From positions 24,470,501-24,534,500 of the forward strand of contig AP031352.1 of the NCBI GenBank assembly GCA_037833965.1: DNA of 64,000 nucleotides, read 5' to 3'. Positions 5,750 through 64,000 of the stretch are shown here, in pieces. Positions within the stretch are counted from its first letter, which is position 1. Every line of letters starts with the position of its first letter. Source of the stretch: Marchantia polymorpha subsp. ruderalis. Lineage: Eukaryota > Streptophyta > Marchantiopsida > Marchantiales > Marchantiaceae. The notes under the pieces were generated by a model. It was not told where the DNA came from and ran no database searches. It was given only the letters and a program-made list of their open reading frames with translations. A program made the position numbers and the translations under genes.

Positions 5750-6197
5750 CGTAGTGCAGTGTAGTGCTAGTTAGGAATTAGAAGGTATAAAGTAGTTCAA
5801 GGCGTCTTGCCTTGGGATTTTTCCAGTTTCGGAAGTGCAGATCAGGAACTCATTTTCTCTGCGTGTTTGTGTCCTTAATTCTGTCACCACGCGAGAGGAG
5901 CTACACCTTAGCGATCCGCATTGTGTAGCTGAAGGCCTTCGGCTGAATGTTCAGAGCTAGTACATTGGTTAGAGACTTGAGTAGTTCGGGTCTACACCTG
6001 CGGGTGACTGCCGATGCTCAGAGCCAGTGACGAGTTAGATACTTGAACAGTTTCCCCCTTACACTTTCGAGTGACTGTTCCTGATTGTACTTCTTCGGGA
6101 TTTTCCCCTGAATGCCAAAGTGAAGTTTTGCTACTTCGTGTAAGCCTTGGTTGTAAATTTAGGTTACGCTGCAGCAGGTGTCTTCGGGGTAACTCCT

Positions 6198-6683
6198 GTA
6201 GTATTTCTGGGAATGACAAGTGCCTCAGAATTCAAACTCTTCAATAGACTGTTATGGTGTGTTACTGGAACGTTTCTCAGTGAGTCCTTCCGTGCGGATC
6301 TGTGTTCTCTGAGCGTTTTGTGAGTTGGGAGTGTTGTTCACCGCGTGTGAGTGACTTCGATCCGAAGTAGGAAGTCCAACCCGGGTTCCCTACGCTAGCA
6401 GAAAGCTAGAGGAAGGGTTGTAAAAGCCGGAGTTGGGAGTCACTACCTGCAGCTTCGCTGAGTACTCGCAAGAGACTTTCCTCCTGAAATCTTGAGTGGA
6501 GGTCCTAACCGATCTCTGGGTTGTGTTTCTGTAGTTTCAGGTGTGTGTGTGTGTGTGTGTGTGTGTTGTACGCTGCACTGTGCGACCTCCGAGTGAGCTT
6601 CGAGTGAACACTTGCAGTATTTCTGGGAGTGACAGTCGCCTGAGAATTCAAACTCCTCAATAGTTTGTTAAATGTGACACTTT
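6198..6683 (+). repeat. Direct repeat pair in the right arm of copy A
   Basis: A segment of about 55 bases (starting gtagtatttctgggaatgac and running through gaattcaaactc) lies at 6198-6254 and again, slightly diverged, at 6618-6683, about 420 bases apart. Copy F has the same pair near 43684 and 44098, copy C in reverse near 9130 and 9560, and copies D, E and G also have it. The spacing and conservation suggest a functional subterminal repeat such as a protein-binding or processing site; this role is inference. Confidence 0.7.
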
Positions 6684-6765
6684 GTACACTGTGTGTTCCT
6701 CTGTTCTTGTGGGTTCGACCTTTCTACCACTATATTGCAGTTTTAGCCTTTAGTGGATTATTACA

Positions 6766-8024
6766 CTACTTCCTGCCTTCATCCTTCGCATGTTGCTCAA
6801 GTTGGGTCTGCGCCGAAGGCGCTTCACCCGGAGTCCTCTGAGCCGAAGTCCTCTCCATACACTTCTCCTGCGCCAAAGGCTCTTGACCCAAAGTCGAGTC
6901 GTCAAAAGTTACTTGCTTAGAGGCCAAGCACCTATCCGTCGCTGGCACACTAGTCGGTGCCGCATGCCGTCTTCCTTGAACCGAAGGCCTTCTTGCCTCT
7001 TCCGAAGGCGTCCGTGCCTTTGGTGCATGGAGGTCCGTTGTCCTCTCAAGAACTCTTGCACTCGCATTCTCCCCCGAGGATGGCGAGTTTCTTCTCTCCG
7101 CGGCTCGTCCTGTGTCCGCACTACTCGCCGGCAGAACAAGCTTGCGAGCTTTTTTGCTTCGGCTGACTGGAGGGCTCGTGGGTCGCCCAACTTCGGGCGA
7201 GAGCAGCGGGCACTTCTCGCTGACTCTGGTACGCCTCCCCATCCCATTTCCGCTTCCACGGTTTCGTACTGCCCGCGGTTCTTCCTCTGCTCGCGGTTGA
7301 GCTGGTGGTGTGCAAGCGGGCGTCTCGTCGGTGTCGGTGTCGACCTCGACATCCTTCACGTATCTCTCCGGATTGCTGCGTGACAGCAAGGGAAACTGCA
7401 CACGCTCCGACGCTGTCAAGCACCCTATCGACCGATAGAAGTTAATCAAGAAGGGGGAGAGGTGATTGATCGATCCCCCCTTCTCCTCCAGCGCGTGCTG
7501 TCGCATTGCCTTCCATAGAATCCGAGCCCAATGGATCGGAGTTCCCGGCAACGCCAGCTCCACAAACCCCACCTGCCAAGAAGTCATGTAGGTGGTCCGG
7601 TGCGGCTGTAAAATTTGGAGGAGTGCTACCGCGACATTCCTCCACATCCGATCCTTGTAGTCACGGCTCTTGTACCCGTTCTTACTGGACTTGCTGTTCT
7701 TGAAAAGGGCACGAAGGAAATGTCTTCTTCCTTCGTGACCAGCACACTCTCGCATTCGAAGAGAAGTTCGCCTTCTTCTCCCGCGCACCTTCCCAAGACT
7801 TGTTCCCAATCGCTGACCTGCCATGTCTCCGGATATGGTCAAAAACCGCGCGGAGGTTGGTTCCTCTCCTGCAGCCATTCCCGGACCATCTCAGGGCACA
7901 CCCAATTCCATTCCCATATGAGGAAATCGAGCTTCACCGCCGACAGCTCGTTCTGAAATGCGCGCAGTCCGATCTGCGGCACTTTCAGCGGAACCATCCG
8001 CTGCTGAGTCGACCGGGCCATCAA
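6766..8024 (-). pseudogene. N-terminal and middle part of the TIR-element protein, copy B
   Basis: Reading leftwards from ATG at 8024, this gives the conserved start (RMVPLKVPQIGLRAFQ), the motif WVCPEMVREWL, then after a frameshift the block NGYKSRDYKDR, TTYMTSWQVGFVELAL and GSINHLSPFLINFYRS. A charged Pro/Ser-rich middle follows with repeated PSAE/PSAQ peptides made by the GCC-GAA-GGC microrepeats. The reading is broken exactly at 6766-6770, where copy A is inserted, and resumes at 1978-883. It is therefore a pseudogene broken by insertion as well as by a frameshift near 7850. The function is unknown; the layout of helical N-domain, low-complexity middle and coiled coil resembles the 'putative plant transposon protein' type of ORF, which is an inference. 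Confidence 0.75.
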
Positions 8025-9639
8025 ATTCTTGCAAGTCTCCGCGCACTTTGTTCGCTGCTGACGTAAGCTTCTTGCAACTTCTCTGCACTCGCTACTACGC
8101 GTCGGGAGCTCGGGTGAACTCGCTGCAATTTCTTTCTACACTTCTCGCACACTCTCTTTCAATGTTTCCGCGCGCGCTCAGCGAATTTTCCACAAGACTC
8201 CTGCAAGATTCTACTGCTGCGCACTTCTGCACTCTCAAAAATCCGCACACTCTCCTCAAACTCAGAAATCCCTCCGCAAGATCACCGCAAATTACCCTCC
8301 TGCGCGTCGCGAGCTTTGACAGATGCGAAATTGAAAATGCGAGCGTGAGAGTGAGGGTGAGTTCTTTCCTTCGGCTATCAAGATCGCCCAACGTTCGACA
8401 TTTGGACTGGCTGCGGCCCGCTTGAATGCGATGCCGGCGCGGAGGCGTAACAGCCCAATTTGCACGCTCAAATTTCCGCTCAGCCGTTGTGCGGACTCCC
8501 ACACGTGTACGTTCAATCTTGATTCCGCCGATTTCCGCTGACGCTCTTCTCCGCTCGCGTACCGCCAAAGGCGCATCGCCAAAGGCTTCTTCCGCCAAAG
8601 GTACAGACTTCCGCCGGTTCTTTTGTCTTTTCTTCTTCCGCCGAAGGCGCATGGCCGAAGGCGTCCGAAGTGACGGGGTAGTTTTCCCTGTGACGAAGGC
8701 GTCTACTGTGCATGCTTCGTACGTCTTCAGCGACAGAACCTCTAGAGGCGTCTGTGCTAAAGGCGCTTCCTTCTGCTTGCGCTGAAGGCACCTCACAAAA
8801 GGACTTGTTGCCAAAGGCGCTCTCCCCAGCAGGAACAGTCTGCGCCGTCCAAGGCGCTTGTCCTTGGCCTAAGGCCCCCCCCCCCCCCCCCCACACTCCT
8901 GGATTCTCCGTGACCCGCGATTCTCCCTTTTTATTGTATTTTTCGTTCTGATTACTATTTACAGTTGTTGTCGCGGTACTTATTTTTCAAAAAATGTTTT
9001 AATTCCGAACAAAAAAAAAAAAAAGTGGGTCATCACACATTGACAATGCTGATGTGTAATGACCCATCAAAGGCTAAAATTGCAGTATAGCAGCAAAAAG
9101 GTCAAACCCACAGGGATAGAGGCAAGACACAGACTACTAAATGTCACGTTTTAACATACTATTGAAGAGTTTGAATTCTCAGGCGACTGTCACTCCCAGA
9201 AATACTGCAAGTGCTCAACTCGGAGGTCACTCGGAGGACGCACATTGCAGCGTAGTTCACCCCAACACACACCCAAAACTGGAAAAGCACAACTAAGAGG
9301 TCGATTAGGACCTCCACTCAAGGTTCAGGGGAAATTTTCTCAAGAGTACATTCAGAGGATCTGCATGTAGTGTTCCCCAACTCCGGATTGTTAACTCTGA
9401 CTGCTAGAGCAGAGCACCAGGGTTGGACTTCCTACTTCGGATGCGGTACCTTCGTCAAACCGAAGTCACTCTCACGCGGTGAACAACACACTCAACTCCT
9501 AAAACGCGCAAAGAATACAGGAACCGAACTGAGAAACTCAACTTAACAAAGATCCAGTGTCACACCATAACAGTCTATTGACGAGTTTGAATTCTCAGGC
9601 ACTAGTCATTCCCAAAAATATTGCAAAGGGTAGCCCTGA

Positions 9640-11113: not shown

Positions 11114-13234
11114 CCTCCCAGACAGCGGTTCACTCGCTCACTCAACTCTTCTCGCGTGCGATTTGTCGCACGCCGGTTGTCGCCTTCAACCTCTACCAAC
11201 TACAGCTTTGCCTCCGCACGCTTCGCTCTCAATTCGTCGCACTGCGATTGCAGGCGACACATTAACTCCTCATCTGCTTGGCATGCGATCTAACACTGCT
11301 CCAACAACCGTGTCTGCCGCACAAGCTCCTCCGCCAAAGTCAATTCTGAGATCAATTAGTATCAATTCTTCGGATCAATTCTGAGCTCGCTAAGAATTGA
11401 GCTCCGCCTCGAGCTTCTCCCGCTGCTTCTCAAATTCTCTCTGTGCTTTGGCCGCCTTGTTATTGCGCATCTAGTTTACTGCCTTCTGCAGTTTCCGCGA
11501 GAGTGTGAGATGTCCGTGCAGGGCATCGTTCTTCAATCCAACTCTCTGCACCTGTTGTCCAGGGAACTCAGTACAGGATTCGTCGCGACTTTGCTTCGCG
11601 TCCGATTCAGCACCAATTTGACGTAGGATTCCTGATGGCGGGGATCAGCGTACTTCGCCGCCTTGCGATCAAGGTACCGCAGTAGCGGTACCACCTGCTC
11701 GCACAATACTCCTGTTGGCGTGCCTTGCACCGACTCCACTTCCTGCCCTTCCGAACTCGACTCGTCCTCTTCATAGAGGAATCGAGGATCTCTGTTGCCA
11801 CAGAAATCCTCGGTGATTCCCTGGAATTGGGTCGCGTGGCTTCTGCTGATGCGACCGCCGCTCCACTCCCGGCCAAGATATCCAATGCGGTGGGAGATCT
11901 GGCTTCCGGCAAGTTCGCTTCTCCTACTCGAAGGCGCTTGTGCCGAAGGCAACTGTGCCGAAGGCACACGTATCTCCTCCTTCCGGCCTTCGTCCGTGGC
12001 CGATTTCTCAAGTTGGGCCTGAGCCGAAGGCGTCTGACCCGAAGTCCGCTGAGCCGAAGGCTCTTCCCCACTCTAGTTGTGCGCCGAAGGCTCTTGACCC
12101 GAAGTCGAGTCGTCGAACGGTACTTGCTAAGATGCGAAGCACCTGTTTGTCGCCGGCACACTCGTCGGTGCCTAATGATGTCTTCCTTGGCCCGAAGGCC
12201 TTCTCGCTTCCTCCGAAGGCCTCCGTGCCTTTGATGCAAGGAGGTCCGCTGTCCTCTTGCTAGCTCGTGCATTCGCATCCTCCCCCAAAGATGGCGAGTT
12301 TCTCCTCTCTGCAGCTCGTCCGGTGTCTGCGCTGCTTGCCGGCATGATGAGCCTGCAAGCCTTCTGCTTGGGACGACTGCAGAGCCGTTGAATCGTTTGA
12401 CTTCGTCTCGGAGCAGCAACAGCGTTTTGCTGACTGTGCTCCGCCTCTCCATCCCATTTCCACTTCCGCGGCACTCGTGTTGCGCGCGGTTCTTCCTCTG
12501 CTCTCGGTTGAGCTGGTGGCGTGCAGGCGGGTGTCTCGTCTTCGTCAATGTCGACTTCGACATCCTTCACATACCGGCCCGGATTGCTGCGTGATAGCAA
12601 GGTACACTGCACTCGCTCTGTGGCTTTCAAGCATCCCATCGACCGATATAAATTGATCAAGAAGAAGGAGAGGTGATTGATCGATCCCCCCTTCTCCTCC
12701 TGGGCGTGCTCTGCCATCGCCTTCCTGAGAATCCGAGCCCAATGGATCGGAGCTCCAGCCAACGCCAGCTCCACGAACCCCACCTGCCAAGAAGTCATGT
12801 AGGTGGTCCAGTGCGGCTGCAAAATTTGGAGAAGTGCTACCGCGACATTCCTCCGCAAGCGATCCTTGTAGTCACGGGTCTTGTACCCGTTCTTGCTTGA
12901 CTTGCTGTGCTTGAATAAGGACCCGAAGGAAATCTCTTCCTCCTTGATGACCTGCACACTCTCACATTCAAAAAGTAGACGGCCTTCTTCTCTCGCGCAC
13001 CTTCCCAACACTTGCTCCCAGTCGCTGACCTGCCATCTCTCCGGATGCGGTCGGAATCCGCGCGGAGGTTGATTCCTCTCCCGCAGCCACTCACGTACCA
13101 TCTCCGGACATACCCAATTCCATCCCCATAGGAGGAAAATCGAGCCTCACCGCAATCAGCTCGCGTTGGAATGCGCGCAGACCAATCTGCGGCACTTTCA
13201 GTAGAACCATCCGCAGCTGGGTGGACCGGGCCAT
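10840..13234 (-). pseudogene. TIR-element protein, copy C, frameshifted
   Basis: ATG at 13234 opens MARSTQLRMVLLKVPQIGLRAF, the same start as in other copies. After a frameshift near 13130 the N-terminal domain is open from about 13101 (MVREWLRERNQPPRGFRP, NGYKTRDYKDRLRRN, WQVGFVELALAGAPIHW, INHLSFFLINLYRSMGC). The Pro/Ser-rich middle, the block LCEQVVPLLRYLDRKAAKYADP and the coiled coil (EELSERVNRCLGGYTRWE, RRVAKRLDAFLARS) follow in changing frames. It is a decayed copy of the same gene as in A, B, D and F. Confidence 0.75.
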
Positions 13235-14294
13235 CGCACTTCTTGCAAGTTCCTGCACACTTCTTCTCTCTGCTTTCGCGAACTTCTTGCTTCTCTCTGC
13301 GCGTCAGGAGCTCGAGCGAACTCGCTGCGATTGCTCTCTACACTTCTTGCACACTCCCGCAATATCTCCGTGCAAGTTCTCCGCGAGCTTACTGTAATTG
13401 CACACTCTCCTCACACTCAACGATCACTCCGTGAATTCTCCCCAAGACTCTCGCAAGATCTACTTCCGCGCACTCGATTGTTGCGTGCTCCGCTCACCCC
13501 TCACTCTCAAAATTCTCTCCGCAAGATTGCTGCGACTCAGGTGAATGTGAAATCAAAAATGGAAGAGTGAGAGCGCAGCGAGGTCTTCCCTTCCTTCGGC
13601 GATCAAGATCGCCCAGCGTTTGACACTTGGACTGGCCACAGCTCGCTTGAATGCGATGCGTAACGGCCCAATTCGCACGCTCAAATTCACGCTCCGCTGT
13701 TGCGCGAACTCCTACGCGTGTATATTCAATCTTGATTCCGCCGTTTTCCGCCGAAGCTGCTCTCGCTCGCGTATCGCCGAAGGCGCTCGTGGCAAAGACA
13801 CGTCCTCCGCGACTCCTTTGTCCTTTCTGCTTCCGCCGAAGACACTCCACCAAAGGCGTTGCGGCAAAGCGTCTTGCTCCGTCCGGTTTCTCTTTCACGT
13901 CCTACGCATTGCCGAAGGCGGTTTCCTTCCGCCGAAGGCGCATTGCCGAAGACGTACGGCCGAAGGTGCACGACCGAAGTCACTGCATCTCGCATTCGTC
14001 TGTGTCGTTTGTCGTGCGAATACATATCGCCATACACTCTACATCGCTGACATGCTACTCACATACACATACGCACACATACACACATATAAGGCGCGAG
14101 AGAGTACACACTCAAATGTCACAACTCGCCCCCCTAGCTGGCGGTCAGGTCCCTCTGACTCCCAAGTAGCCCTATCTACAACTACATGCTATACACCTTC
14201 ATGGGTGTGCGAACCAGTAGGCCGGGTGCTATGTCGCCCCATCGTTAGTCGCCTATCTGCAATTCATAACATGTGAAGATCAATTCATCTACCC

Positions 14295-14438
14295 CTATGA
14301 AGTACATCGAGGACAAACCCATCGTCTAGCCGGAATAACATCGATAGGCGGAGTCAGGCACAACATGTGCCATCTCTTAGAACACCTATCACACACCAAC
14401 ATACGGGCCGCCTGACCAGCTAACTCACACAGCATGCA
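14295..14438 (-). other. PHD zinc finger at the integrase C terminus
   Basis: The residues follow the C4-H-C3 pattern: CMLC, twelve-residue spacer, CDRC, then WHMLC supplying His and Cys, and WVCPRC as the last pair. TPPIDVIP before the last pair and the Trp two residues ahead of the last Cys pair are typical of true PHD fingers, which in other proteins bind the histone H3 tail. The finger ends two residues before the stop. Confidence 0.85.
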
Positions 14439-15548
14439 CCTCAAGCAAGCACGTACTATTGCTAAGCTTGGGTCCATAGTGCCATCTACGTTTGGCAGGT
14501 GGCATGGCGCACAATTGCGCACATGATCCTTCCAAACAATGCCGTCACGACTCTCGAACAGGAGAACTCCAGAAGGTAACACCTCCCGCACCCGCAAGAT
14601 TGTGCGTCCCGCCGTCACATCCAATGTCGTCGGTGCAGTCTGCTGTAGATAGATGTAGTCTCCCACATGGAATCTACGAATCGATAGTCGATAACCTCCT
14701 CCCCGAATGATTGCATACCGCAACGTATCTCTATGTTGAGCAATCGCAAGATTCTCAAACGCTGCAGGCATAACTCTCTGAAAGAGCTCTGCACGCTGAG
14801 AACATACTCTCACTCACATATTCGGGTCATCAAGGTTCACCACCTCGCTAGACTCACGACGAATCGATGTTGGCAAGTCTGGATCTCGGCCGTACAATAG
14901 AAAATATGGTGAGAAGGAAGCCAAGGATGCTTGCCGACTGAACCGATATCCCATGGCCAACCACGGTAACTGGATATCCTAGTCCCTAAGATGACATTTC
15001 TGCAGGCCATACTTGCGCAACGCCCTCTTCACTGTCTGTACAACACGTTCAGCTAAACCATCTGCCTCTAGATGATCTCGCGATGTGGTCCGATGATCAA
15101 TCAGTGCCTTGTCGCACAAGACCTGAAACTCACCCTGAAACTCTGTTCCTTGATCGGTCAACACCTCAGCTTGTGCACCATAGTGACTAAGCACTTTGTT
15201 AAGGAAAGCATACGCTACTCCCTCACTTGCCTTGTCAGGTAATGCCATCAACTCAATCCACTTGGAGAAATGCTCCACCATCACCAACACATACCGATGA
15301 TGTCGTACAGTCAAAGGTAGTGGTCCAGCAAAGTCCAAACTCCAACAGTAACCCAACCCCATGATGGGTAATGGATGTAACACTGGTGTCGGGGCATTGA
15401 ATGATGCCCTCACTTGATCACAAACCATGCAATGTGATACCAACTGCTGCACCTGAGTATGCATACCACGCCACCAATACTGACCAAGGAGTAAGCTATA
15501 TGTACGCTTCACTCCAAAATGTCCCAACTCCTCATGAGCATGCCTCAC
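14295..15548 (-). pseudogene. Gypsy integrase ending in a PHD finger
   Basis: The zinc-binding HHCC region (HEELGHFGVKRTY, then CMVCDQ) is followed by the integrase core with its three acidic residues in SLDFAGPLPL, VLTDQGTEFQ and ADGLAERVVQTVKRAL. Stops at about 14982 and 14820 break the frame; between them the typical segment LPWLAMGYRFSRQASLAS is kept. The last frame (14813-14295) has a GPY/F-like small barrel (FHVGDYIYLQQTAPTTLDV) and then a PHD finger in its final 47 codons. Integrase inserts the cDNA into the chromosome; C-terminal readers steer it. Most chromoviruses carry a chromodomain at this place, and this element has a PHD finger instead. Confidence 0.85.
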
Positions 15549-15560
15549 AATGCATGCTCT

Positions 15561-17326
15561 TTAAGCTAGATGTTGTACTACTCGTACCCTACCGTCCTCC
15601 CAGACTCGGAGAATATGTGATCCCTCCAATCGGTATCTCTTCGCCCGTTGGAGAACACGATCTCGCTCCTTGGCACCCACTGTGCCTGGCACCATGCTAG
15701 TCCGTAGGAACTCCAACACCAGTGCATCATCGTGAACATCATGCTGATCCACACCACCATCCTCAACCTCAGGATCTGAAGATCGACCATCTACTCTCTT
15801 ACTAGAGTAAGATGTGAGATAATCCTCTCTGGTGGAGTTTCCACATAGCCAACACATGAAGGCAGATGCATGCAAACCAGGCACCATCTCCTTGTCAACC
15901 TCACCATGCCATCTAGCTCCAGTGTCATCCTCCTGGCTAGTGCATGGGTTTCGACTCAAATCATCGGCATCCAAGTTCGCAAATCCAGGTCTATGCACTA
16001 CCTGAAAATCGTGCTCCTGTAAGATCAGAGCCCACCGTGCAAGCTTCCTTGTGAGCTTGTCAAACTCCATCAACCACTTGAGCGGCTGATGATCAGTAAC
16101 AAGGGTGAACTGCGTACCAAACAAGGAAAACCTGAAGTGTGCCACATGCCACACCGCTGCCAAGCACTCTCCTTTGTCAAACTATACCGCGACTCCGCTG
16201 CATTGTTCGAACGACTAGCGTACGCAAGCACAAACTACTTGCCCTCATCATCACGCTGCGTCAACACCGCTCCAAGTCCCAACATACTTCAATCGGTGTG
16301 CAACTGGTATGGACGAATTCTGATAGGTCTCCTCAAGATGGGAGCGGCCACCAATATGGCCTTGAGGTCAACAAAAGCTCTCTCCTGCTCATCTCCCCAT
16401 TGCCACTCCTAATCTGACTTCAGCAACTGGTTCAAAGGCTTGGCTATAGCACTGAACCCCTTCACACACCTCCGGTAGTAGTTCGCCAAACCCATGAATG
16501 CACGAACTCTACTCACATCCGTGGGACAAGGGATGCGTGCAATAGCCTTCACCTTTGCTTGCTGAACTCCTAAACCACCTGGGTATATCACATGACCCAA
16601 GTACTCAACCTTTTCCTGGAAGATCTTACACTTCCCAGGGTGTAATCTCAAACCATGAGCCCTCAACTACTCAAACACAACCTGCAAATGAATGTGGTGT
16701 TGCTTCACAGTGTCACTAAACACCAAGATATCATCAATGTAACATCTGACAAAATCCAACCCCGCCAAGATTCTGTCCATAACCCTCTGAAATTTGGCAG
16801 GTGCATTCTTCAACCCAAAGGGTAAGAATCGCCACTGATACAAACAATCCTTGCCGTGGAAGTTGACACCCCAGAACGCTGTCTTGGTCTTGTCCTCCTC
16901 TCGAATTGGCAACTGATGGTATCCTGCCCGAAGATCCAAAGTACTAAAAATCCTCGCATGTCCCACCACATCGAAGATCTCCTCGGGTGTAAGCATGGCA
17001 TATTTATCGGACTTCGTCTGCTGATTGATAGGACGGTAGTCTCCACACATGCGCCTATCCGTGTAGTTGTCATGTACATCCTTCTTCACCGGCATGACAA
17101 TGGTTGACGCATACTCACCATGCGATAACTCCACTAGTCCAGCCTCCAGTAGGTCCAACGTCCTACTTCGAATCAAATTACTCTCCATGTCACTGTATCG
17201 ATAAGGACGCCGGAAGATTGGCGTATAACTAGCCAATTCTATCCGTATACCGGGTCCAATCAACGCACCCAACTCCTTCATACTGAAGGAAAAACAACCC
17301 CTATAGTCTCGTAGGAATTGTGTCAA
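15561..17326 (-). pseudogene. Ty3/gypsy reverse transcriptase and RNase H
   Basis: The reverse transcriptase is clear: CGDYRPINQQT, IFSTLDLRAGYHQLPI, WRFLPFGLKNAPAKFQ and the catalytic FVRCYIDDILVF. A stop at 16667-16669 interrupts the thumb, which continues in the same frame (RLHPGKCKIFQEKVEYLGH, VRAFMGLANYYRRCVKGF). RNase H follows after a second stop and a frameshift: LHTDWSMLGLGAVL holds the first Asp and VTDHQPLKWLMEFDK a conserved later block. HRPGFANLDADDLSRNP ends the domain and CWLCGNSTREDYLT is in the linker. Order and motifs are those of Ty3/gypsy Pol; this copy is inactive as read. Confidence 0.9.
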
Positions 17327-17422
17327 TCGTCGCCTCTCTCCTCATGTGATTTGGGAACCAATCAATGGCTCCCATTCCTCCTCCATAGACACATTAGAGG
17401 GAGGCGACACTGTCAATGGTTG

Positions 17423-19197
17423 CTACGCTACATCCTGCAAAGAAGGGTTCTCCCTACACTCCTTCGTAGCCACCTCCACATGAGAATCCTCTCCAACTGC
17501 ATGGGCTCCAACTCTAGCAAGTTCTCTCGTCACGTCCCATGAATTCCAAGGATGACGAATATCTCGCCTGTCGCCCCCAGCCATTGCCACTACCGTCCCG
17601 ATAGGCAATGAGCTAACAAGTGGTGTACTAACCACTAAATCAACGTGCAACCGGCGTTGCTCTGCCAAATCCAAGCTCACAATCCACATCAAGCAGTTCA
17701 GATCCATAGCTTGACCCAAAACTTGATGACGCGAAGCCTCTGAAACTAAAGCAGCTGCGGTCGCACCAGTTATAAATCCCATTGCACGCTCTCTCTCTTA
17801 TCAGCGTTGGGCTCCACCAACTGATGTACTGTACTATCCCACAGTAGCCCAGGTCCACCATCACGATATGCATGTGATGCTGGATAACTAACCAACGTAG
17901 GTAAAGCCATCCGAGGCTGACCTACGCGGTTCACCAATGCCATAGGCGACCTATCAGCAACTCTCACCACATGAGAGTGTCGGAAAACATCCAAGATACT
18001 GTCAACGGTGAGTGTAGGATCACGCTGCACAGAATCATAGGCATGACGCAATATCTCACGTGGCAAAAGGTTGGTCCACCATAAACGTGCACGATGAGCC
18101 CGTGATCCAATTTTCGCAGCATCCAACAATACTGCTGATCCAATCCATCCTCGGACCTGATGGACACTCGCCATCAACGGGGCCCGAGTATCACCCAACA
18201 ATGGTACGTTCTCCAGAATGTATGCTGGAGAACGTGTCTGCTGCACTTGGAGATGACGTAACACTCGCATCATCTCCCAAAACATCTGAGATCTGGGATC
18301 ATGCAACCGTGTCCCATGTCCAGCGCGTGTGTGTCCCTGACATGGCCAGCCCGCAATCACCATATCAATATGGCCAACGCGGTCAAGGTCTGGCGCCCCC
18401 AGCAACGAAATGTCTGAAGGCAACGCCTTCTGGAATCCTCGGACAGCTGATCGCGGCAATAACGAAGGAAAACGCTGCATCAACTGTGCAACATGTCGTG
18501 AAGAGACTCGACGTGCAGTCTTGTCCTTCTCCACATACAAGTATCTCCGTACAAGAATACCCGACTGCAAAACCGCAGCCAAACCAGTGCTGATCCCACC
18601 AAAAAGATCCAGCAAACAAACGCCCTCTAAGGAATACTCCCATGCAATAGGTGTAGTAATCAATGGAGACAATGCGCTAGAACCGGCAACTAACCGATCA
18701 GCTGAAGCCCTCTCTAGCTCTACTGGTAAAGAGGCTTCACTCCAAGACTTCTTCACCAACCTATCAGCCTCTAACTGTAGTGCCTGACAAGAACTCCACA
18801 GTGGAACATCTAAGGGTGAAGTCACCACTGCTGTGAAACTCACAACCTCCTCCACATCCTCGTAGACTGAGGTATCGTCGGCAAACATGTTCCCCTCCAA
18901 CAAGTCCTCGTGCCAGGTAAGCACTTCGCTAAAACCCGCAACGGATGCCAAGACCGTTGATGAAGATCCAAGAGGTCGATCCCGAGAAATAAATCTCACA
19001 GGCAACTGGCTCAGACGTCCATCTCCGGACTGCCAACCAGGACGATAGGTGGCAGTCTCCGTCCAATAGTCCATCCGAAAGCCCATCGGATATAACACAG
19101 CTTCACCAACAAGCACATCATATGACTCTGCTGATGTAACCACAGCACGAACTCCAAATTGCGAGCTATCATGAGGGTGATCATGCCTCAACTGCAC
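17423..19197 (-). CDS. C5-cytosine DNA methyltransferase domain in a gypsy polyprotein (one frameshift)
   Basis: The 475-codon frame from 19197 to 17770 begins with the end of the protease and a linker of about 150 residues, then has a full C5-methyltransferase core. Motif I is LDLFGGISTG (residues 196-205, S-adenosylmethionine loop), an acidic motif II YVEKDK follows at 221, motif IV is AGWPCQGHTRAG with the catalytic Cys at 286, motif VI is YILENVP (326-332), and motif VIII is GSRAHRARLWW (364-374). LPTLVSYPASHAYRDGG precedes a frameshift near 17790 in a short GA repeat. After it, motifs IX and X read on as MGFITGATAA and RHQVLGQAMDL in the frame 17782-17423. All catalytic motifs are kept. 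The enzyme would methylate cytosine in DNA; target choice cannot be told. It lies between protease and reverse transcriptase, so it would be released from Pol by the element's own protease. Confidence 0.88.
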
Positions 19198-19828
19198 CGC
19201 TATGCTCTATTTGGTCATAAAGTAAGATCTGTCGCAAACATCCAAGGGATGTTTGGATCTGGAATGGGCAAGGTTCCAACTCTGACCTTCGAATACCCAA
19301 ACTAATGCATGTAGCCTTGCCCAACATCAAGGGTTGTGCACCAGAATCCAGCAAAACTCTGGCTGGAACATACACTTGTCCGGTAGAACTCACTAACCGA
19401 AATAGACCACTTCGGTTGTCCACCATACATACACCAGGGACAATACTCTCGCGATCAATGGCTGGGCGAGCTGCTAAGGACTCCGACCTCGCCGCTGCCG
19501 CCTGCCAAGTCGTCTCCTCGAACAATGTAGACATTGAGGATGGGTCTTTAACTATATCCTCACGTATCTCGGCACTTGTAGCAGCGACTCTTCCACGTTC
19601 ACACGACGTGGCTGCTACCCGAAATACTCGAGCGAAATCAATACCAGAGTCCATTAACTCCGTGGCTGAAAACAATGGAGATCGCAAGACTGAGGTGGCC
19701 ATCTGCATCACTGCACTAGATGGCACGTCAGCGTCCACAACAGATGATGTAAGAACCTCAGTTCTCACTCTAGTGTCACTAGGCGGTGCAGGTTTCATAG
19801 ATGAACTGCTACCCACTTCCGACAACAA
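19181..19828 (-). pseudogene. Retropepsin-like aspartic protease of the gypsy element
   Basis: The frame ends with the protease active-site strand VYVPARVLLDSGAQPLML, where DSGA is the catalytic Asp-Ser/Thr-Gly triad of retropepsins. The flap and C-terminal half (AESYDVLVGEAVLYPMGF) are found in the next frame at the start of the methyltransferase ORF, so a frameshift near 19190-19210 splits the domain. In the intact element it would cut the Gag-Pol polyprotein. Position between Gag and the methyltransferase fits Ty3/gypsy order (gag-PR-RT-RH-IN) with an extra domain inserted after PR. Confidence 0.75.
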
Positions 19829-19870
19829 AAGGTACTGGGAAAGTCTAGACTGACGTCCACCCTCACCCCT

Positions 19871-21354
19871 CTAAGGGTCCAACTCCACAGTCGCACCACG
19901 TGGCTCTACAGTGCGAGCAGCTCCTCTGGTCACTGCAACTGATGCCTCAACCTGTGCTGCACTGGCCAAATAAGAGAAATCTTCTCCCTCGTAAGATGTG
20001 GAAGTGCTCGCCTCCAGACCAGCCATAGCAGCAAGCCTCTGCTCCAACTGCTCAATCCGAGCAGCCATAGCGCTCTCTGTGGCGGAAGTAGCACTCGTTG
20101 CGGCACGCTCAATGGCACCGGTACCTCTACCACCTCTACCGCCTCTGCCACCTTGGCCTCGTGGAGCATCACCTCCACGACCTCTACCTCTTGATCTCAA
20201 CTCAGGATGAAGGTCAAAACAACGCTCTCGAGGATGACCCGGTCGATGACAATGATCACAGGTCACCTGTGCCGGCTGTGGCCAAGCATGTGGAGTTTGT
20301 CCCTCTCGCTCCTGGGGACAATCCTTCCTCATATGACTACCTCCGCATGTCCAACATAACGGTCCCTGTGGCTGGCCCAAAAATGAAGGCAGTGGTGGCC
20401 GCGCACTAGGCTCTCTGTGACGTGAAGGATGTAGTGTATGACCTCCACGACTCCCACTACCACCACCCATGTGGCGAGACTGTGCTGTGCTATGTGGGAT
20501 ACGCGAAGTAGTGGTTGTGTCCCTTGCAAATGTAGACGTCACCACCCTCTCCTCCACCATGTTAAGCTCAATTCTCTCAGAAAGAGCAAACACATGGGCT
20601 AATGTGGATGATGAGTTGCTCATGAGAGTAGCATCACGCACTCTCCTCCGCAAGTCTATGTCCAGAATCCGATACCAGTACTGGACAGCCTGTGCCTCAG
20701 TCACACCGTGAGTAACTGAGATCAGCCGTCGCATACGAGTGTATGCCTCACGAAGATTCTCATCAGTCTTCCGCTCAAACTCCTGGAGACTCCTCAACTT
20801 CTCCGTCTTCACCCCCTGATAGTTCTTCCTCAACCTCTAGAAGAACTCAGGAATGGGGCTAAACGAAGGTACGCCACTAGCATCTCCCCTCGTGCTGCCA
20901 CCAGCAATGCTAGCAGTACCGTTGTTGGTACTAGTACCAGTTGCGCCAACTGCTCCACTGGTACCCTCGCTGATGCTACTACTCGCACCTCCGCTGATGC
21001 CGATACTCGCACCTCCACTGGTACCCCACCACCCTCGGTAATGGATAAGTAGTTTGGAGACCAATGACGTCTCCATGCATCAATCTCCGCAGCATAATCT
21101 CTCCCAAACTCATGATAATCGTCCATGGGAGGCTCCTCCAAGTGTTGGAATAACCCCTTCCACGCAAAGAAGGGTGTAAACAACGTGGGGTTACGCAAAA
21201 ACTGCATATCACACCACGTGTCAAACTCCTGAATAAAATCATCGAGCTCGATGGTGCCCACTGCACCAGAATAACGTCGAGGGCCCTTCACGGCCCCGTA
21301 CATCCCGTACATGTCCCAAATCAATGGGGTTGGAACACCGGACGATATCACCAC
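19871..21354 (-). pseudogene. Ty3/gypsy Gag with two zinc knuckles and RGG tract
   Basis: Gag of the methyltransferase-bearing retroelement. The N-terminal part opens at 21354 (MVISSGVPTPLIWDMYGMYG) and contains a helical region around DDFIQEFDTWCDMQF and DAWRRHWSPNYLS. A frameshift and an in-frame stop near 20840 (PIPEFF, stop, RLRKNYQG) lead into a capsid-like segment (LREAYTRMRRLISVTHG, AQAVQYWYRILDIDLRRRV). Two CCHC knuckles follow: CWTCGGSHMRKDC and CDHCHRPGHPRERC, then an RGG-rich tract (RSRGRGRGGDAPRGQGGRGG) and a short coiled coil. Knuckles and RGG tract fit binding of genomic RNA. Because of the breaks this copy should not make a normal Gag. Confidence 0.8.
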
Positions 21355-22196
21355 CGAAGACTCTGTGTCTACAACACTCTAGTCCTCCTCCGCAACAACT
21401 GGCGAGATAGGTGAAGGTAGCCGATACCTCAACCCACTCCGTGTAAATCCACCGCGGTCCTCAATAGGACCACTAGACTGCTCCGTGATGACATGACCTC
21501 AACTAGCATCACTGCCAGATCTCCACCCAATAACACTATGTGCACCTGACGTCGTGCGGCACTAAGCTTCTCAAGCCCTACTAACTAAGAGGTATGGGCA
21601 ACCTAACCTGTCATCACAGCAAGAAAACTTTCACGGTCTACTGGTCATCACTCCAGTCTCACCGTGAGAGAAACATAGATAGGCCGGCCGGTGATCAAGT
21701 CTAGCCCCCTATCGACAGCACACATGAGTAAAACTACTCCGGAAATCAGCATCACCCCTACACGGGCGCGCACCAAGAAGCAAAACTGGAGAGGATCCAA
21801 ACACAAGCAAACAGCTAACGACGACTCTCCAGTCTAAAGGAAACACAGCACAAAACAAAACAACACACACTTGACATCGCATCGCTTCGCGATCTCGATT
21901 AATCTCCATCGCCCGCCATCAACGTAGGCCTCCAGCGCTTACGATGCCCTCTTCCATCAAATTGCAAACAAAATTTGTTTGAAAACTTCTTCTTTTTTGC
22001 TTCTTTTTTTTTCTCCTTCACACAGGGGTCATAGCCCCCCTCAACAAACACACTACACACTGAAAGCTCAATATATTGACTAAGTCATATATATATTTAC
22101 AATGCTTTCAAAAAATCACGTTTACAGGTAGTGAGACCGGGTGCAAACTCCCGATCCCTTCAGTACCTCCTGTTTAAAAGCTACAGGTATTTGCTA
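21355..22196 (-). other. Leader region upstream of gag, no gene seen
   Basis: This stretch precedes the gag start of the retroelement and should contain its leader and any 5' LTR. I see no tRNA-complementary primer site, no repeat of the 14010-14290 sequence and no convincing ORF. An AT-rich patch with tatatatatt lies near 22087-22097. Confidence 0.4.
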
Positions 22197-22574
22197 TCAA
22201 TCCTTTGAAAGACTATCAAGAAATTTCTCTAGTACAAGAATTTCTTCTGAGAGACAGTCTTGAACATACTGAACATCTCTCAAATGATCAGCAATATACT
22301 TCGAAAGGTCGAGTAACTCATCCTCACGTATCCGATACTCTAGGCCGGATTCCTCTAGAAGTTTTTCTACGGCTAGTGTCTTGTCCCAATCTAACCCAGA
22401 ATTTTTTTCTTCTACCACAACAATGTTTACCGGATTCTCTTCTACTTGAGGCTGCACCGTCACCTCCTGCTCCTCACGTTCCTTGCTGCTGACAACCTCC
22501 ACTGTCTGGATTTCTTGTACATCATTGTTGTCCGCTTTTTCTCCAAGCGGCATTTTCCCTTCACACGTCAACAC
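22197..22574 (-). CDS. Small acidic ORF, unrecognised
   Basis: A 125-codon frame opens with MLTCEGKMPLGEKADN, has a Glu/Val-rich stretch (VVSSKEREEQEVTVQPQVEE) and a helical, Leu-rich C-terminal part (LLEESGLEYRIREDELL, LSEEILVLEKFLDSLSKD). I recognise no domain. It lies inside the 11.3-kb insertion between the gypsy gag and the La pseudogene and could be a fragment of a captured transcript, a further exon of that pseudogene, or chance. Confidence 0.3.
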   Translation of the reverse strand: MLTCEGKMPLGEKADNNDVQEIQTVEVVSSKEREEQEVTVQPQVEENPVNIVVVEEKNSGLDWDKTLAVEKLLEESGLEYRIREDELLDLSKYIADHLRDVQYVQDCLSEEILVLEKFLDSLSKD

Positions 22575-23715
22575 TTCACTGTATACAAGGATTGTTTACA
22601 GAGTATCTGTAAACTAAATCTGAAGGGAAAACTAAAAATTGTTTAATTCTAAAATTATCACAAAGTTTTAGAGGAGCACCAAAAACTTTTTACTGTAAAG
22701 TATCACTCATGGATATTTACCACAGCAAAAATGAAAGGAACTGTAAAACCTGTATAAAGTTAACCTCCTTCTATGGACAGCTAAAGCAATTTCTTTGTCT
22801 CTACAGGTTTTCAAGCACTGTGCATAGCCTGAAACAATTTCTCTAAAGCAGTTCTCTAAAACTAGGTAGAGCACTCATCAAAAGTTTCCACGTAGATTTT
22901 TGTTTGCAGTCCAAACATTTAGCGGAAGACTGCAAAAACCCTACATTTACCTTGCTCGCTGATTGTGACAAGTAATAACCTCAAGACATTATAGAATGCC
23001 TGATCGAGATAACTTCATACTTTTTTTCACCTAGACTTCTCCCATAGCCTATTACTATGTTTATGAGCTCGAATCAATACTAAAGCAGAAACTCACACTT
23101 GCATTCACATGGTTTCACTTGAAACCAACCTGAATTGACACTTTCACTATAAACATCGCTGCTTAAATGCTTGACACTCATCGCATTTAAGCAAGTTGTG
23201 CAGCCTTGTTTTAGATCACTCCAGATCTGCACCTTCTTCAACGCCTCGGGTTTGTAGACTTCTCGACACAGGAAGGGTCGAGCAAAGCGTTGAGGAAAGA
23301 GAAGGTTTTTATCAAAGGTTCTACTGTCATCACAGAACCTTGCTCCGGTCCTAGGAGATTCGAAGGCGGAACGGAATCTGGTGGTAGATCAGTCAAGAAT
23401 AATTTTCACTAATAGTAGACCTCTCAATGGGGCTAGGACTCCTATACTAACTTGTCTGAGGCGTACTGATTCCCCAACTGGCAGTGATGTTGTCGTGCAC
23501 ACTCCATCAGTGCCAGAAAGGAATTCTTGTTTTGTCGCCGTAGAAGGTTTGCCATACCCAATGCCTATTAGTGCTATCGAGAAGAGATGTCAGCTCACGG
23601 TGAGATTGCCCGATCACCAGAAAATTTTGTGGTACATTGCTCTTCTTCAGCCACACAACCGAATTATGCCTCCACAAATTTACAGGTCTGGTTGATTATG
23701 ACAAACTTGAGGAAA

Positions 23716-24260
23716 CTACAACATTATTTCGACTAAGCTACGCATCAAAGTCTCAATTACCCGTGGGACTTTGATTACCCGATCTTGCAATTCTTCAAAC
23801 GTTTCCGTGGAAACACTTTCCAGCTCGGCACCCTGAAACGAAAGCTTGAGACCCTTCACTCGTTCCGCTCCCTCCTTAGAAGCAAATTCAACAACCGCAT
23901 AGCCAGAAAACTCTACGCTCCGGCTAGCCTGGGCAATCGCACGCTGTTCACCTTGCTGTGATCTTTGAAGAACAGATCCACATCATCGAGGGCAACATTC
24001 CACGGAAACGGATTGATTGCGAGGCTCCGGGCGTCTACTTCAGGTTGAACCTTGTTGAAGATTTCAGATTATCACCGCGTCCGATTGTCACACCATCCTC
24101 AGACAAATAAAGAGTAGAGGACTTTTGCAGGATGTCTGCGACTGCAGAAGTAATTTCAACAAGTACAGTACCACTTCATGTTCTTTCGAACCGAGATGAG
24201 TTCTTATTTGCGAGAAGGAGCAAATCAGAGGCAAAGTGATCAATCCGTCTTCGGCTCTTC
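23716..24260 (-). pseudogene. La-protein (La motif and RRM) pseudogene fragment
   Basis: On the reverse strand the end of a La motif can be read (AVADILQKSSTLYLSEDG, TIGRGDNL), then after a one-base shift VDARSLAINPFPW and DLFFKDHSKVNSVRLPRL, the start of the La-type RRM, and after a second shift FSGYAVVEFASKEGAERVKG and LSFQGAELESVSTETFEELQ, its end. Plant La proteins bind the 3' U tail of RNA polymerase III transcripts and have this order of motifs. Two frameshifts and a short truncation make this a pseudogene. It lies in the 11.3-kb insertion upstream of the gypsy gag, so it was probably carried along. No introns are evident in this part, consistent with but not proving an RNA origin. Confidence 0.6.
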
Positions 24261-25304
24261 AATTCACTTCAGGAAATACCTGTCCCCCGGTAAGATTGCT
24301 ATCATTGAAATAAAACTCGACCTGTCATAAAATCTTGGCCTCTTTGAGATAACCACAATCGGTTCTGTAGTCAAAATTATTGTCTCTCTTCTAAACGTAT
24401 CAACCACATGAATGACTGAAAGGGCCTCCCTCTCTGCGCGCAAAAGCGATAGCGCTCACCCTTTTTATTTCGCCATCATGATTCACAGCGTAGAGTAATC
24501 TCCCTCAATTCTGATCCAATCCGCTGAATTGATCAAACACCTGTATCAAATCTGTCCAGCTCGGCTTTCCGACTCGAACAGTTTTCGCCGTAGCCCAGAA
24601 AATCAACTCCCTTGAACCCTAAAACCGTAAAATTTCAGTCCTGAAAATTTCAATAAACCTTTCCTTGAACTACGTGTATCAAAACCAATTGCTCTGGAAA
24701 ACGAACAATCCGATGACGAAGGTTCAAAGAAACGAAACGAGTACAACCAGAAATCCCTAGATTCTACGATCTTAGAACTCCTTCTTCGATGCACTCACTC
24801 TTGCTGTTTAGTTTTTAACTCCTCGAACCTTCACACTAATGGTATAACCTAACCCCTCTCTGCCACACAATTTACCTCTCGTCAGATCCAGGAAGTAATT
24901 CACGCCCGAACATACACACAGACCAACTCACACACGCGACGGAACACACAGAAACGTAACAAACTTTCTCGTGATCCCGCACTGCAGGACCCCCACTATC
25001 AGTTCTTCGAGTGAAACGAACGGGAGATTCCCCAATGGAATTCCCGTTCGTCAATTACCCTACTGGCAACAAACCGTCACCGTCACAAACATGAGTCAAG
25101 CCCAACCCACTCCACACTCGGAGAATCTAGGTCGACGCAAATGGGAAAGTCGCTCTACGCTCCCAACGCTTCTAGGCTCGACTCGAAGAACTAACGTTCT
25201 TCGAGCCGTCCCCGACTGTATATCCCTCGTGACCCGAACCCTAACTCCACGTCTAAATACAGTAAGTGCCCAGACTGCATGAGCCGACTCGAAACTACAT
25301 GACA
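24261..25304. other. Flank of the La pseudogene, no gene seen
   Basis: No domain is recognisable. Sequence features such as ataaaaagggtgagcgctatcg (reverse strand, about 24450) could be a leader and splice donor of the captured La gene. The stretch ends at the CATGACA edge of the insertion. Confidence 0.3.
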
Positions 25305-25315
25305 CGTTTCTTCTT

Positions 25316-25500
25316 CCGCCGAAGGCGCTCTCATCGTAGGTGCGTCCTTCTGCCGAAGGCGCATGTCTCCACCGAAGGCACTCCACCGAAGGCAAAGTTC
25401 TGACTTTCCGCCGAAGGCGAAACCTAACATCAAAAGCGCTTGCGCCGAAGGCGCTCGGGCGAAGGAGTCTACCGCCGAAGGCGCTCCGCCGAAGGCGTAG
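25316..25500 (-). repeat. Cluster of GCC-GAA-GGC hairpin microrepeats
   Basis: About eight copies of GCCGAAGGC or one-base variants occur in 185 bases, several extended to CGCCGAAGGCG. Each is an inverted repeat with 3-4 bp arms around a 3-base loop. They lie in the left arm of copy C; the same units fill the left arms of copies A, B and D and the coding middle of the element gene. Confidence 0.85.
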
Positions 25501-25879
25501 TCTAGCGACGAAGTCGCTTTCTCTTGAAGAAGGCGCATCCGTCCAAGGCCTCGTACGTCTTCAGCAAAAGCTCTTATACAGGGATCTAGCCGAAGACGCT
25601 CTCTCCTGCTTGCGCCGAAGTCACTTCGCCGAAGACCCCTCAACAAGAAAGCTTTTGCCAAAGGCGCTAGAGGCGCTTCCCTCAGTAGGAACCGTCCGTT
25701 CCGGCCAAGGCGCCTGTCTCCGACATTGCGCCCAACTCGATGATTCTCGATGACCCGTGATCTTCCATTTTTACTCTATTTTAGTGTACCGATTACTATT
25801 TACAGTTGCTGCTGCGGTACTTATTTTCCAAAAATGTTTAAATTCCGCACAAAAGCAAAAAGTGGGTTACCACATGATG

Positions 25880-27485
25880 TACGTAAAATGAGTGACTCAT
25901 CATTCTTTGATTGCAAATAACCTCAAATCAACCATAATATTTCAAAATATACATGAAATTTTTTTGATGTAGCTTATAGAATTTAATCAAAGCTTCAAAA
26001 ATTTGTGCAAAAATTATAGTAACATGAATTTTGTTTGCAAGAGAATTGAAGAATTGAGTTATTTGAGAAGAAAGTTTACGAGTTTTTGCTTTAATTTAGG
26101 CTATGTTTTGAAATTGTTCAAAGATTTAGATTATGTGTGATGATTGTGATTAGTCCAATATGGTTTGAAAAATCATCAAGAAACATGCAATAAAGAAGAT
26201 TCATTTTAGTGATTCATTCAGCCAATCCCTTGATTTCCATATGCTTATGTGACAACACAACAGAATACCAGCTAAAAGCATGTAGTTTTTGTAATGTGAC
26301 GAGTTGAAAGTTCCACGTGGTGGGTCATTGGTTTAGATACTAGGTACAGATTTTGAGAAGACGACAACATATTTGGTGCAATATCTCAAAATTTTATGTT
26401 GTTCCTTCAATCCAAGTAGGAGTTGAATATAATGATCCATTACTTTGACAATAGGTACCTTATGTTGGATAACACACTTGCAACATCCAAATATGATAAA
26501 AATTTTGCTACAATTCTTAAATTATTGATTTTTTTGGTCACTATATAACCAAAAATATTGTACTTATTATATTTGTAAATGCATTTATACACATCACACA
26601 TTAAATTTATGTGTTAATAGATTATTAAATATTGTGTGTTTTATCATTATGCAATATTTATTTTTTACTCTCTATGCTTTTAATTGTCATCAAATTTTAA
26701 TGAGAAAAGATAAACAAAGTATAACAAACATAGTTAGATTTGCGATTCATCCGATTTTGAGCCAAGTCCTTGAAAATAACAAGTCATTTACTCCAAAGAT
26801 TTTACAAGTGTGTACTATTGTTCTATCTAGACTTCTCTCCTACTCGTGTATTTATACATGAGTCTACAATTCCAAACTTAGGGTTTCTTGAATCCTAAAT
26901 AAAGCGGTGACTAATCCTAAATAGAGCGATGACTAATTTTAATTGTATTGGAGACTTGAATTACTCCAAATAATATTATTATTGATGATAAAATTACTCT
27001 TTATGTTATTTGAGAAGTCAAAGAATAGAAAAGAGAGATAACTAGGGAGGAGTTGTTTGGAAATTACACTCAACTGCAGGAAAAATGTGAGTGTAGAACA
27101 ACACAAACTAAATTGAGTAGAAGTTTCTTGTCTCCAACTAGATCTTTGAAGCAAAATGATTAGGTAAAGAGCTTTGTGCTGACACAAATATGATTAGTCT
27201 AAATTACAATGCTGTATAGTGAATTGATTGATTTATAGATGAATGTTAAGTAATCATATTAACACATGTACATATATAATCCAAATTTAAGAAAAAAGTT
27301 TGCTATGTATCTTTTTTCTGAATGTGAAAAAGTATTCTGGATAGGACTCACTATGAGCACAAAATGATGTTTATATGTCTTCTAGTATTACAAAAGCTAA
27401 AAAATTTAGATTTAAATTCTTTAGGAGTTATCTTTTTTAATTTTGGTGGCGGTATTTGCAAACATATAAATTCAAGCAAGTGGTG
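25880..27485. other. AT-rich spacer, no gene recognised
   Basis: A low-GC stretch with no supported coding region. On the reverse strand catgtataaatacacgag near 26855 resembles a TATA region such as found in plant LTRs, but I could not find LTR borders. It may be decayed transposon sequence. Confidence 0.35.
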
Positions 27486-27489
27486 CCAT

Positions 27490-28175
27490 ATATCTCGAGA
27501 GGGGAGAAAGTGAGAATATTTTTGGGAAGTGGTGACAAAAATCTTCGAAGAGAGGAGGAAGTAAGAGTATTTTTGGCGAGTTGGACAAAAATCTCCCGAG
27601 GCGAAGGGAAATAGAGCATTTTTGAAGTGGGACAGAAATCTCACAAGAGGGAAGGAAGTGAGAGCATTTTCAAAGTGGGACAGAAATATTCCGAGAGGGA
27701 AGGAGTGAGAGCACTTTCGGAGTGGAACAAAGATCTTCTGAAAGGGGAGGAAGAGAGAGTATTTTTGGAGTGAAAAAATTGCTCATGAGAGGGGAGGAAG
27801 TGAGAATATTTATTGGAAAATGGTGACAAAATTCTCTTGAGAGGGAAGGAAGTAAGAGTATTTTTTAGAAAATGATGAAAAAATCTTCCAAGAGGGAAGG
27901 AAATGAGAGCATTTTTGAAGTGGAACAAAAATCTCCCGAGACGGGAGGAAGTGAAATTAGTTTTAAGAAGTGATGAAAATCTCCCGAGACGGGAGGAGGT
28001 AAGAGTATTTTCGGGGAGTGATGAAAGAAATCTCTTGAGAGAAAAGGAAGAGAAAGCATTTTTGAAATGAGACAAAAATTCCGAGATGGAAGGAAGTGAG
28101 TATTTTCGAGGATTGATGTCAGAAATCTCTCGAGAGGGAAGAAAGTGAAGGTATTTTTGGAGTGATGATGATTTG
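27490..28175 (-). repeat. Minisatellite, about 14 units of roughly 50 bp
   Basis: Units of 47-53 bases start near 27494, 27541, 27592, 27641, 27690, 27731, 27781, 27832, 27884, 27932, 27983, 28031, 28079 and 28126. The plus-strand consensus is close to aaatctcccgagaggg followed by aggaagtgagagtattttt and a gtggtgac-type end. Units differ at many sites, so the array is not recent. Reading frames on the reverse strand (SHFKNA, SPLGRF-type repeats) are a by-product of the repeat. Confidence 0.85.
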
Positions 28176-63100: not shown

Positions 63101-64000
63101 TGTCGGAATGTTGAAGCAACTACGATTTTACTCTTCTTTCGCTCTTGGGTTTAAGTCGATTTATCTGTATGTTTCGGTTGACCGATTTCACACAACTACG
63201 ACTTCTTCCGACCGCTTACCGGTAAGGAAATTCTAGTTGAAATCGTGGGCCGGGCCTTCGTGATAACAAGGTTTAAACTACGTGTCAGCGCCACGGTACA
63301 ATACGTTTGAGAACATCGATCTGTAGTTCCTCTTCAACCAGGAGGATTCATCGCACGTGATCAGATCGTTTTTCTTTTCTGCCGTGAACTCTCTCAAGAG
63401 CTTTATTCACCCATTGCCTTGGAATGCGGCGGCCTTTATCATCAACCTTGTTACTGTCAGGTATGGCTCCCATATACCCAAACTATCGTTTGACCCTTAA
63501 AAGCTCTCTTTCCATGGACTGTGAGACGAAGATTTTCGAAAAAAGGGATTTCAAAGAGGTTTGGATCTCTTAAATTTTGAGTCCAATTTCGTGAGCTCAT
63601 ATAGAGAAGCTGAAGCGTAGAGCTGGTGGAAAACGCGGTGAGTGCAGGAAATTTCTGCAAGGTGGTTAAATTGATGTGTGCCTGCACTTCTTTCAGATTT
63701 GTCGAAACCCTGTTACGACGATCATGAACGTATTTCAGTGGAGCTCTATCGACAGAGAAGAACCCCGTCGACAGGAGGGAATGATCAGGAGATTTGTTAT
63801 ATTATATGGCATTATACTTGTGAGATACTCGCGAACGATCGTAACGAGTGGCAACTAGTTTATCTTATCTGACTGGATCGAACTATATCACATAATCAGC
63901 AATTAAGATGAAGTCTGCGGCACTGCCTTACTGATATATTGTGACATCACAGTTAGAGAACTTCCTGGAATTGAACCTTCATTGTTTCTCCGCGCAACCG
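63101..64000. other. Upstream region of the orphan gene, no gene seen
   Basis: The reverse-strand promoter of the 59840-63100 gene should lie here. Only short frames are present and none has a recognisable domain. Confidence 0.4.

Follow-up and report, generated by a model that had tools for sequence, protein, structure and literature searches.

Retrotransposons encoding a DNMT3-type methyltransferase (MTase) are known from dinoflagellates and from Klebsormidium, in the latter within the Pol open reading frame of a gypsy element (PMC5890265). Two copies of the dinoflagellate type, SymbioDIRS-Dnmt3, methylated CG sites de novo in yeast; the Klebsormidium enzyme showed no methylation in yeast, a result that its authors call inconclusive, and options for the purpose of retrotransposon methylation are listed in the same article (de Mendoza 2018, PMC5890265). 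Retrotransposon-embedded DNMT3 in streptophytes is also mentioned in PMC12344493, citing de Mendoza 2018, and absence from land plants is stated in one paper. No report of DNMT-bearing retrotransposons in bryophytes was found in searches of open-access literature, including passages of PMC12344493, PMC9998398, PMC5784723, PMC10952607, PMC8616336, PMC6338049 and PMC6453930. The kind of element is already known; new, as far as the searched literature goes, are its bryophyte carriers.

The window, the whole analysed stretch of 64,000 nucleotides, contains on its minus strand an element reaching from about 21312 to 14295, of which the MTase span (17423-19197) is one part only (Table 1). The domain order protease (PR), reverse transcriptase (RT), RNase H, integrase makes it a Ty3/gypsy element. 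The M. polymorpha protein P0152, aligned piecewise, spans 21312 to 17426 of the window; P0154 aligns to PR, MTase, RT and RNase H, and P0009 to the integrase with the PHD end. The N-terminal and C-terminal Gag parts are separated by a frame change, and protein alignment places frame changes in gag, at the PR/MTase junction, inside the MTase and after RT. Since 12 distinct stop codons also lie within the aligned pieces, some of which may slightly overrun a frame change, the window copy is dead. Pfam gave no protease match in the retropepsin piece of the window; aspartyl-protease matches in the relatives P0003 and P0168-P0170 ranged from 2e-5 to 1.2e-3, with P0170 alone above the curated cut-off. 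An LTR pair was not found in the window by direct repeats of 8000-32000 or by window self-BLAST, and a sensitive flank comparison (21300 to 27000) gave short weak matches only, most of them to a motif repeated at 25.3-25.6 kb (best match 56 bases, E 2.6e-4). The copy is decayed or 5'-truncated. Six short primer-site patterns had no occurrence on the element strand in 21000-26500, and Rfam and tRNA scans of the whole window returned nothing.

Table 1. Features of the MTase-bearing element in the window (amino acid identities and E values as evidence)
Feature	Position	Strand	Evidence
Gag, N-terminal part, start near 21312	20830..21312	-	94 % to P0152 residues 1-95 over 21312-21028
Gag, C-terminal part, zinc-knuckle-like cysteines; stops present	19871..20836	-	P0152 gag-PR piece 87 % over 20968-19373; translation
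Retropepsin region, active-site motif LLDSGAQPLMLG	19181..19870	-	91 % to P0154 over 19798-19241
Linker and DNMT3-type C5 MTase, motifs I-VIII and target-recognition region, core from ~18648	17770..19206	-	PF00145; P0152 91 % over 481 aa
MTase motifs IX-X and C-terminal tail, past one frameshift	17423..17797	-	P0152 81 % over 124 aa, to P0152 C-terminus
TAG stop of Gag-PR-MTase frame, then CAACCA	17417..17425	-	homologous C-termini in P0152, P0153, P0159, P0164
Reverse transcriptase, motif YIDD, in-frame stops	16409..17377	-	RVT_1 1.2e-21 and 0.0022; P0154 70 % over 17377-16049, gaps included
RNase H and connection	15561..16408	-	RT_RNaseH 1.5e-14; P0172 pieces 41 % and 49 %
Integrase: zinc-binding, catalytic core, C-terminal domains	14439..15560	-	Integrase_H2C2 2.3e-14, rve 6.8e-13; P0172 45 % over 15740-14292
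C-terminal PHD finger, integrase polyprotein	14304..14438	-	PF00628 9.6e-10; PDB PHD matches
Candidate polypurine tract AGGGGGGCGAG and 3' LTR start TGTGACA	14123..14135	-	read directly; no matching 5' copy found

Another Ty3/gypsy element lies at 46900-48700 on the minus strand of the window (RNase H 3.9e-31; RT and integrase in pieces; nothing matching the MTase), and a Ty3-type gag at 35265-35921 on the plus strand (Retrotrans_gag 7.8e-13). Long dispersed repeats of 82-84 % identity pair 4385-6765 with 41874-44248 and 6766-8154 with 11977-13356. A degenerate CTTCGGCGGA-type repeat, with frames reading SAEGA/AFGGA, is common to the LTR-like stretches at 13600-14050 and 25300-25600, and 27480-28170 is a minisatellite whose repeat unit is about 48 bases long. 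No Pfam match was obtained for a 928-aa frame (40444-43230) or for a single open frame of 1095 aa (59840-63127, minus strand) with repeated V(S/T)P.EF..ML segments.

A 478-codon open frame (19206-17770, minus strand) matches PF00145 with an E value of 3.4e-10 (40.3 bits, cut-off 22). Its translation contains LDLFGGISTG, GWPCQG, LENVP and AHRAR as motifs I, IV, VI and VIII, and the second frame past one frameshift (17797-17423) reads ERERAMGF...GQAMDLN, belonging to motifs IX-X. Both frames align as one protein to P0152 (91 % over 19233-17791, 81 % over 17797-17426). The protease motif LLDSGAQP is situated upstream; RT (1.2e-21), RNase H and integrase follow downstream. From the sequence letters, a preliminary description had claimed a Ty3/gypsy element with a C5-cytosine MTase core (motifs I, IV, VI, VIII) between protease and RT and with motifs IX-X past one frameshift; the domain order, the Pfam match with the translated motifs, the alignment of both frames to a single protein and the flanking domains bear this out. 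New beyond that description are the MTase as part of the Gag-protease polyprotein and the PHD finger on the element.

The best PDB match of the single window MTase sequence is DNMT3A (1.9e-6), and the catalytic domain of animal DNMT3A/DNMT3B is the nearest solved sequence family and fold. The enzyme is accordingly classed, by sequence profile and fold of its catalytic domain, as a C5 MTase closest to DNMT3. DNMT2 was rejected as the class of the domain, and so was DRM, the rearranged DNMT3, for which a permuted order is expected, but the motifs run I, IV, VI, VIII, IX-X. No ADD or PWWP domain was detected by Pfam in two sets of relatives (8 and 7 proteins); these are N-terminal companion domains outside the definition of the DNMT3 catalytic class. 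Motif IV has PCQ in the element MTase, whereas DNMT3A has PCN, and in the alignment the residues of the tetramer (RD) interface of DNMT3A are not kept. A family-profile scan of IMG/VR yielded 54 loci (best-segment identity 26-43 %, best E 7e-14), which were judged, by identity and contigs only, to be methylases of phages or bacteria.

Two protein searches with the MTase (E <= 1e-3, about 8000 candidates scored each), one limited to about 840 aa in length and the other covering about 770-2450 aa, returned 102 and 23 proteins, with P0006 common to both. By printed names, M. polymorpha accounted for 30 of the 102 and 15 of the 23, matches that stem from several annotations of the species and are not all distinct loci, Calypogeia fissa for 4 and 0, and Sphagnum for 5 and 1. 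The names printed for these matches include no vascular plant, no hornwort and no Klebsormidium (63 of the 102 and 7 of the 23 are without a species label), which is no proof of absence. Protease and MTase occur in a single protein in M. polymorpha (P0153, P0154), Calypogeia (P0022) and Sphagnum (P0012), also in P0164 and P0168-P0170. Chance insertion of a piece of a host DNMT3 gene beside a gypsy element would agree with the single MTase copy in the window, but is already refuted by these relatives and has practically no probability left. Two checks had been proposed in the preliminary description, and both favoured the element: other proteins with the domain after the protease are present (e.g., P0153, P0154, P0164, P0168-P0170), and the closest relatives are element-borne. 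Its view of the window as land-plant DNA held as well, the TauE/SafE gene at 55174-56094 having its nearest named matches in M. polymorpha and Riccia. Among the 49 matches of this gene, the highest identities with a species name were 64 % (M. polymorpha), 58 % (Riccia sorocarpa) and 53 % (Riccia fluitans), against 46 % for Calypogeia; a 100 % match stood outside the named records. This makes the host a liverwort, with Marchantia apparently a closer relative than Calypogeia. Identity of the element to M. polymorpha copies reaches 92 %, above that of the TauE gene; one gene is too little to argue for horizontal transfer of the element.

In a tree of 33 rows, the window row groups with five M. 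polymorpha rows (support 100/100). Together they fall within a clade of 16 (99/99) that also holds Sphagnum, Calypogeia and other rows. The deep order is unsure because the sole outgroup, DNMT3A, has a long branch and a pairing of long branches (P0172 with P0091) is flagged by the program. In the distant relatives P0168-P0170, Gag, protease and MTase form one ORF of 1435-1451 aa, with an MTase 50-52 % identical to P0153. In another type the MTase follows RNase H (P0172, P0093) and precedes integrase (P0172, P0173). These metagenome elements thus carry the MTase elsewhere than in the protease/RT interval of the window element; P0172 and P0173 share with it the C-terminal PHD. Identities of P0172 with the window element are 41 % in RT, 45 % in integrase-PHD and 38 % in the MTase; with the other gypsy element of the window they are 31 %, and 25 % and 41 % in two short pieces. 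Since P0172 is nearer to the window element than to that other element in RT and integrase-PHD, the carriers of both MTase placements are related, and the MTase would have either moved or been captured twice. P0172 from about residue 1958 and P0173 at its C-terminus show a second SAM-dependent-methyltransferase-like region after the PHD. In P0172 this region gave MethyltransfD12 at 0.0037, below cut-off, and DPFSGTGAIASEL and TSPWF can be read in the sequence; it is perhaps an adenine-type methylase.

Conservation was compared as protein identity of 13 relatives to P0153 (M. polymorpha), some matches being short pieces. Identity was higher in the MTase core than in gag for all six relatives with a gag match; it exceeded that of the linker in 11 of the 13 and that of the protease in nine, e.g., MTase 74 %, protease 55 % and linker 44 % in P0003, or MTase 52 %, protease 40 % and gag 23 % in P0168. 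The protease was more alike than the MTase in four relatives (P0012, P0022, P0044, P0171), for which lengths and alignment suggest that the matched MTase is incomplete or that the gene model skips parts. By this computation the MTase is strongly conserved, and the elements occur in several bryophytes. Among 32 long-core proteins, 18 had all six motif patterns; the absence of at least one pattern from the other 14 is due to decay, gene-model splicing or divergence past the search patterns. Motif IV of P0172, WECQ, lies beyond the search pattern, and the P0152 gene model is without the protease active-site stretch. The motifs missing in some copies would fit a domain that has lost its role in DNA methylation and survives to bind nucleic acids or to methylate RNA, and RNA methylation has been raised for the LINE type (de Mendoza 2018, PMC5890265). 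Patterns IV, VI and VIII, however, are present in 25, 29 and 27 of the 32 long cores, and the class is DNMT3 and not DNMT2; such a role is quite improbable.

At the end of the MTase, RT lies in the same frame past TAG and CAACCA. The C-termini of the Gag-PR-MTase frames are homologous (window ...NPSLQDVA, P0152 ...NPSLQCVA, P0153 ...NPPLEQVS, P0159 ...SPPLEEVS, P0164 ...PPPEGVA), and the M. polymorpha gene models P0154, P0156 and P0157 extend into RT, apparently spliced round the stop. UAG CARYYA is the readthrough context of tobamoviruses, the hexanucleotide being called essential (PMC2754532; also PMC4132726), and 32 % readthrough was measured in plants for the TMV sequence (PMC2754532). The tobamovirus type, UAG CARYYA with an in-frame polymerase, is matched here as sequence context, noticed after the fact in one dead copy. 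CARYYA follows 5 of the 1516 TAGs of the window versus about 3 by chance, i.e., about 1 in 300 per given TAG, and the RNA fold downstream of the stop is not above chance (z -1.3 versus shuffles). In intact copies the UAG may be read through; if so, the MTase would be made in Gag-like amounts and the polymerase in smaller amounts.

Chromoviruses carry a chromodomain after the integrase C-terminal domain. The element is not a chromovirus: the domain following its integrase C-terminal domain is a PHD finger, and Pfam found no chromodomain in the C-terminal piece, likewise in P0172 and P0173. The best PDB matches of the PHD finger are KMT2D (1.5e-13), then KMT2C, CHD4, PHF12 and PHF21A. At the site of the aromatic-cage tryptophan in H3K4me3 readers, the four aligned element PHD fingers have other residues, so that H3K4me0 would be the better guess for the ligand. 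A literature search found no relevant report on PHD fingers in gypsy integrases.

The window copy is best read as a dead copy of a bryophyte Ty3/gypsy lineage in which a DNMT3 MTase ends Gag-PR, the UAG is read through, the particle-packaged MTase methylates the cDNA and the PHD finger aids site choice; we give this reading a probability of roughly 60 %. Intact copies would make mainly the Gag-PR-MTase product, and readthrough of the UAG by some ribosomes would append RT, RNase H, integrase and PHD. The MTase would enter the virus-like particle along with Gag and methylate the new double-stranded cDNA prior to integration or in its course, probably at CG sites, and the PHD finger would help to select chromatin for insertion. 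We infer packaging, the cDNA as substrate and the context of methylation because the MTase sits in Gag-PR, belongs to the DNMT3 class and is conserved, and because CG activity of SymbioDIRS-Dnmt3 has been published. Counting against this reading are the negative yeast result of the Klebsormidium enzyme, the near-chance stop context, the four relatives with the protease more alike, the P0152 gene model, the cores with missing motifs and the LTR pair that was not found in the window. DNMT3-type enzymes act de novo, and the PHD finger of the integrase suggests contact with chromatin; both count for an MTase acting mainly on host chromatin, where methylation of the insertion region or of other elements would quiet the new copy and its competitors and reduce damage. 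Slower transposition is discussed as one option (de Mendoza 2018, PMC5890265). The bryophyte MTase, however, is located in the Gag-protease frame and not in the integrase-PHD part, which favours a substrate inside the particle, and a main action on host chromatin is possible but rather unlikely. Methylation of the cDNA in the particle, the preferred reading, can be extended to an element that imprints itself: Gag-fused DNMT3 in Gag-like amounts would methylate the cDNA prior to integration, the PHD finger would steer insertion to H3K4-unmethylated chromatin, copies would be born silent, and this would have been selected since before the liverwort/moss split, with the MTase moving between two polyprotein sites. 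This extension is put forward tentatively and is doubtful as a whole. The CpG observed/expected ratio of the element (0.69, with CpA at 1.52) is as expected of methylated DNA; it says nothing special on self-methylation, because the ratio is 0.65 in the TauE gene and as low as 0.46 in the other gypsy element. The purpose of methylation by the element may be hiding as self, protection of the cDNA or an early silencing to the benefit of the host.

The liverwort and Sphagnum elements contradict the stated absence from land plants, for bryophytes. Land plants seem to harbour mobile elements with the means to set the very mark by which such elements are normally silenced. As M. polymorpha is genetically tractable and has many copies, whether and why retrotransposons methylate DNA becomes testable in a plant, with the Gag fusion predicting that the enzyme travels in the particle and acts on the cDNA. 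Surveys of plant methyltransferases could also mistake DNMT3 genes carried by elements for DNMT3 paralogues of the host.

Among the described systems, SymbioDIRS-Dnmt3 of dinoflagellates likewise has a DNMT3-type MTase within a retrotransposon polyprotein, but belongs to the DIRS class with a tyrosine recombinase in place of the gypsy integrase of the bryophyte element (PMC5890265). KnitGypsy-Dnmt3 of Klebsormidium nitens is, like the bryophyte element, an LTR gypsy element of a streptophyte host with an unpermuted, Dnmt3-related MTase and conserved key residues (PMC5890265). The comparison is by published description, and the main text of PMC5890265 contains neither the word 'protease' nor 'PHD'. 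The host of KnitGypsy-Dnmt3 is a charophyte and its MTase lies in the Pol polyprotein ORF, whereas in the bryophyte element the MTase ends Gag-PR before a conserved stop and the integrase carries a PHD finger.
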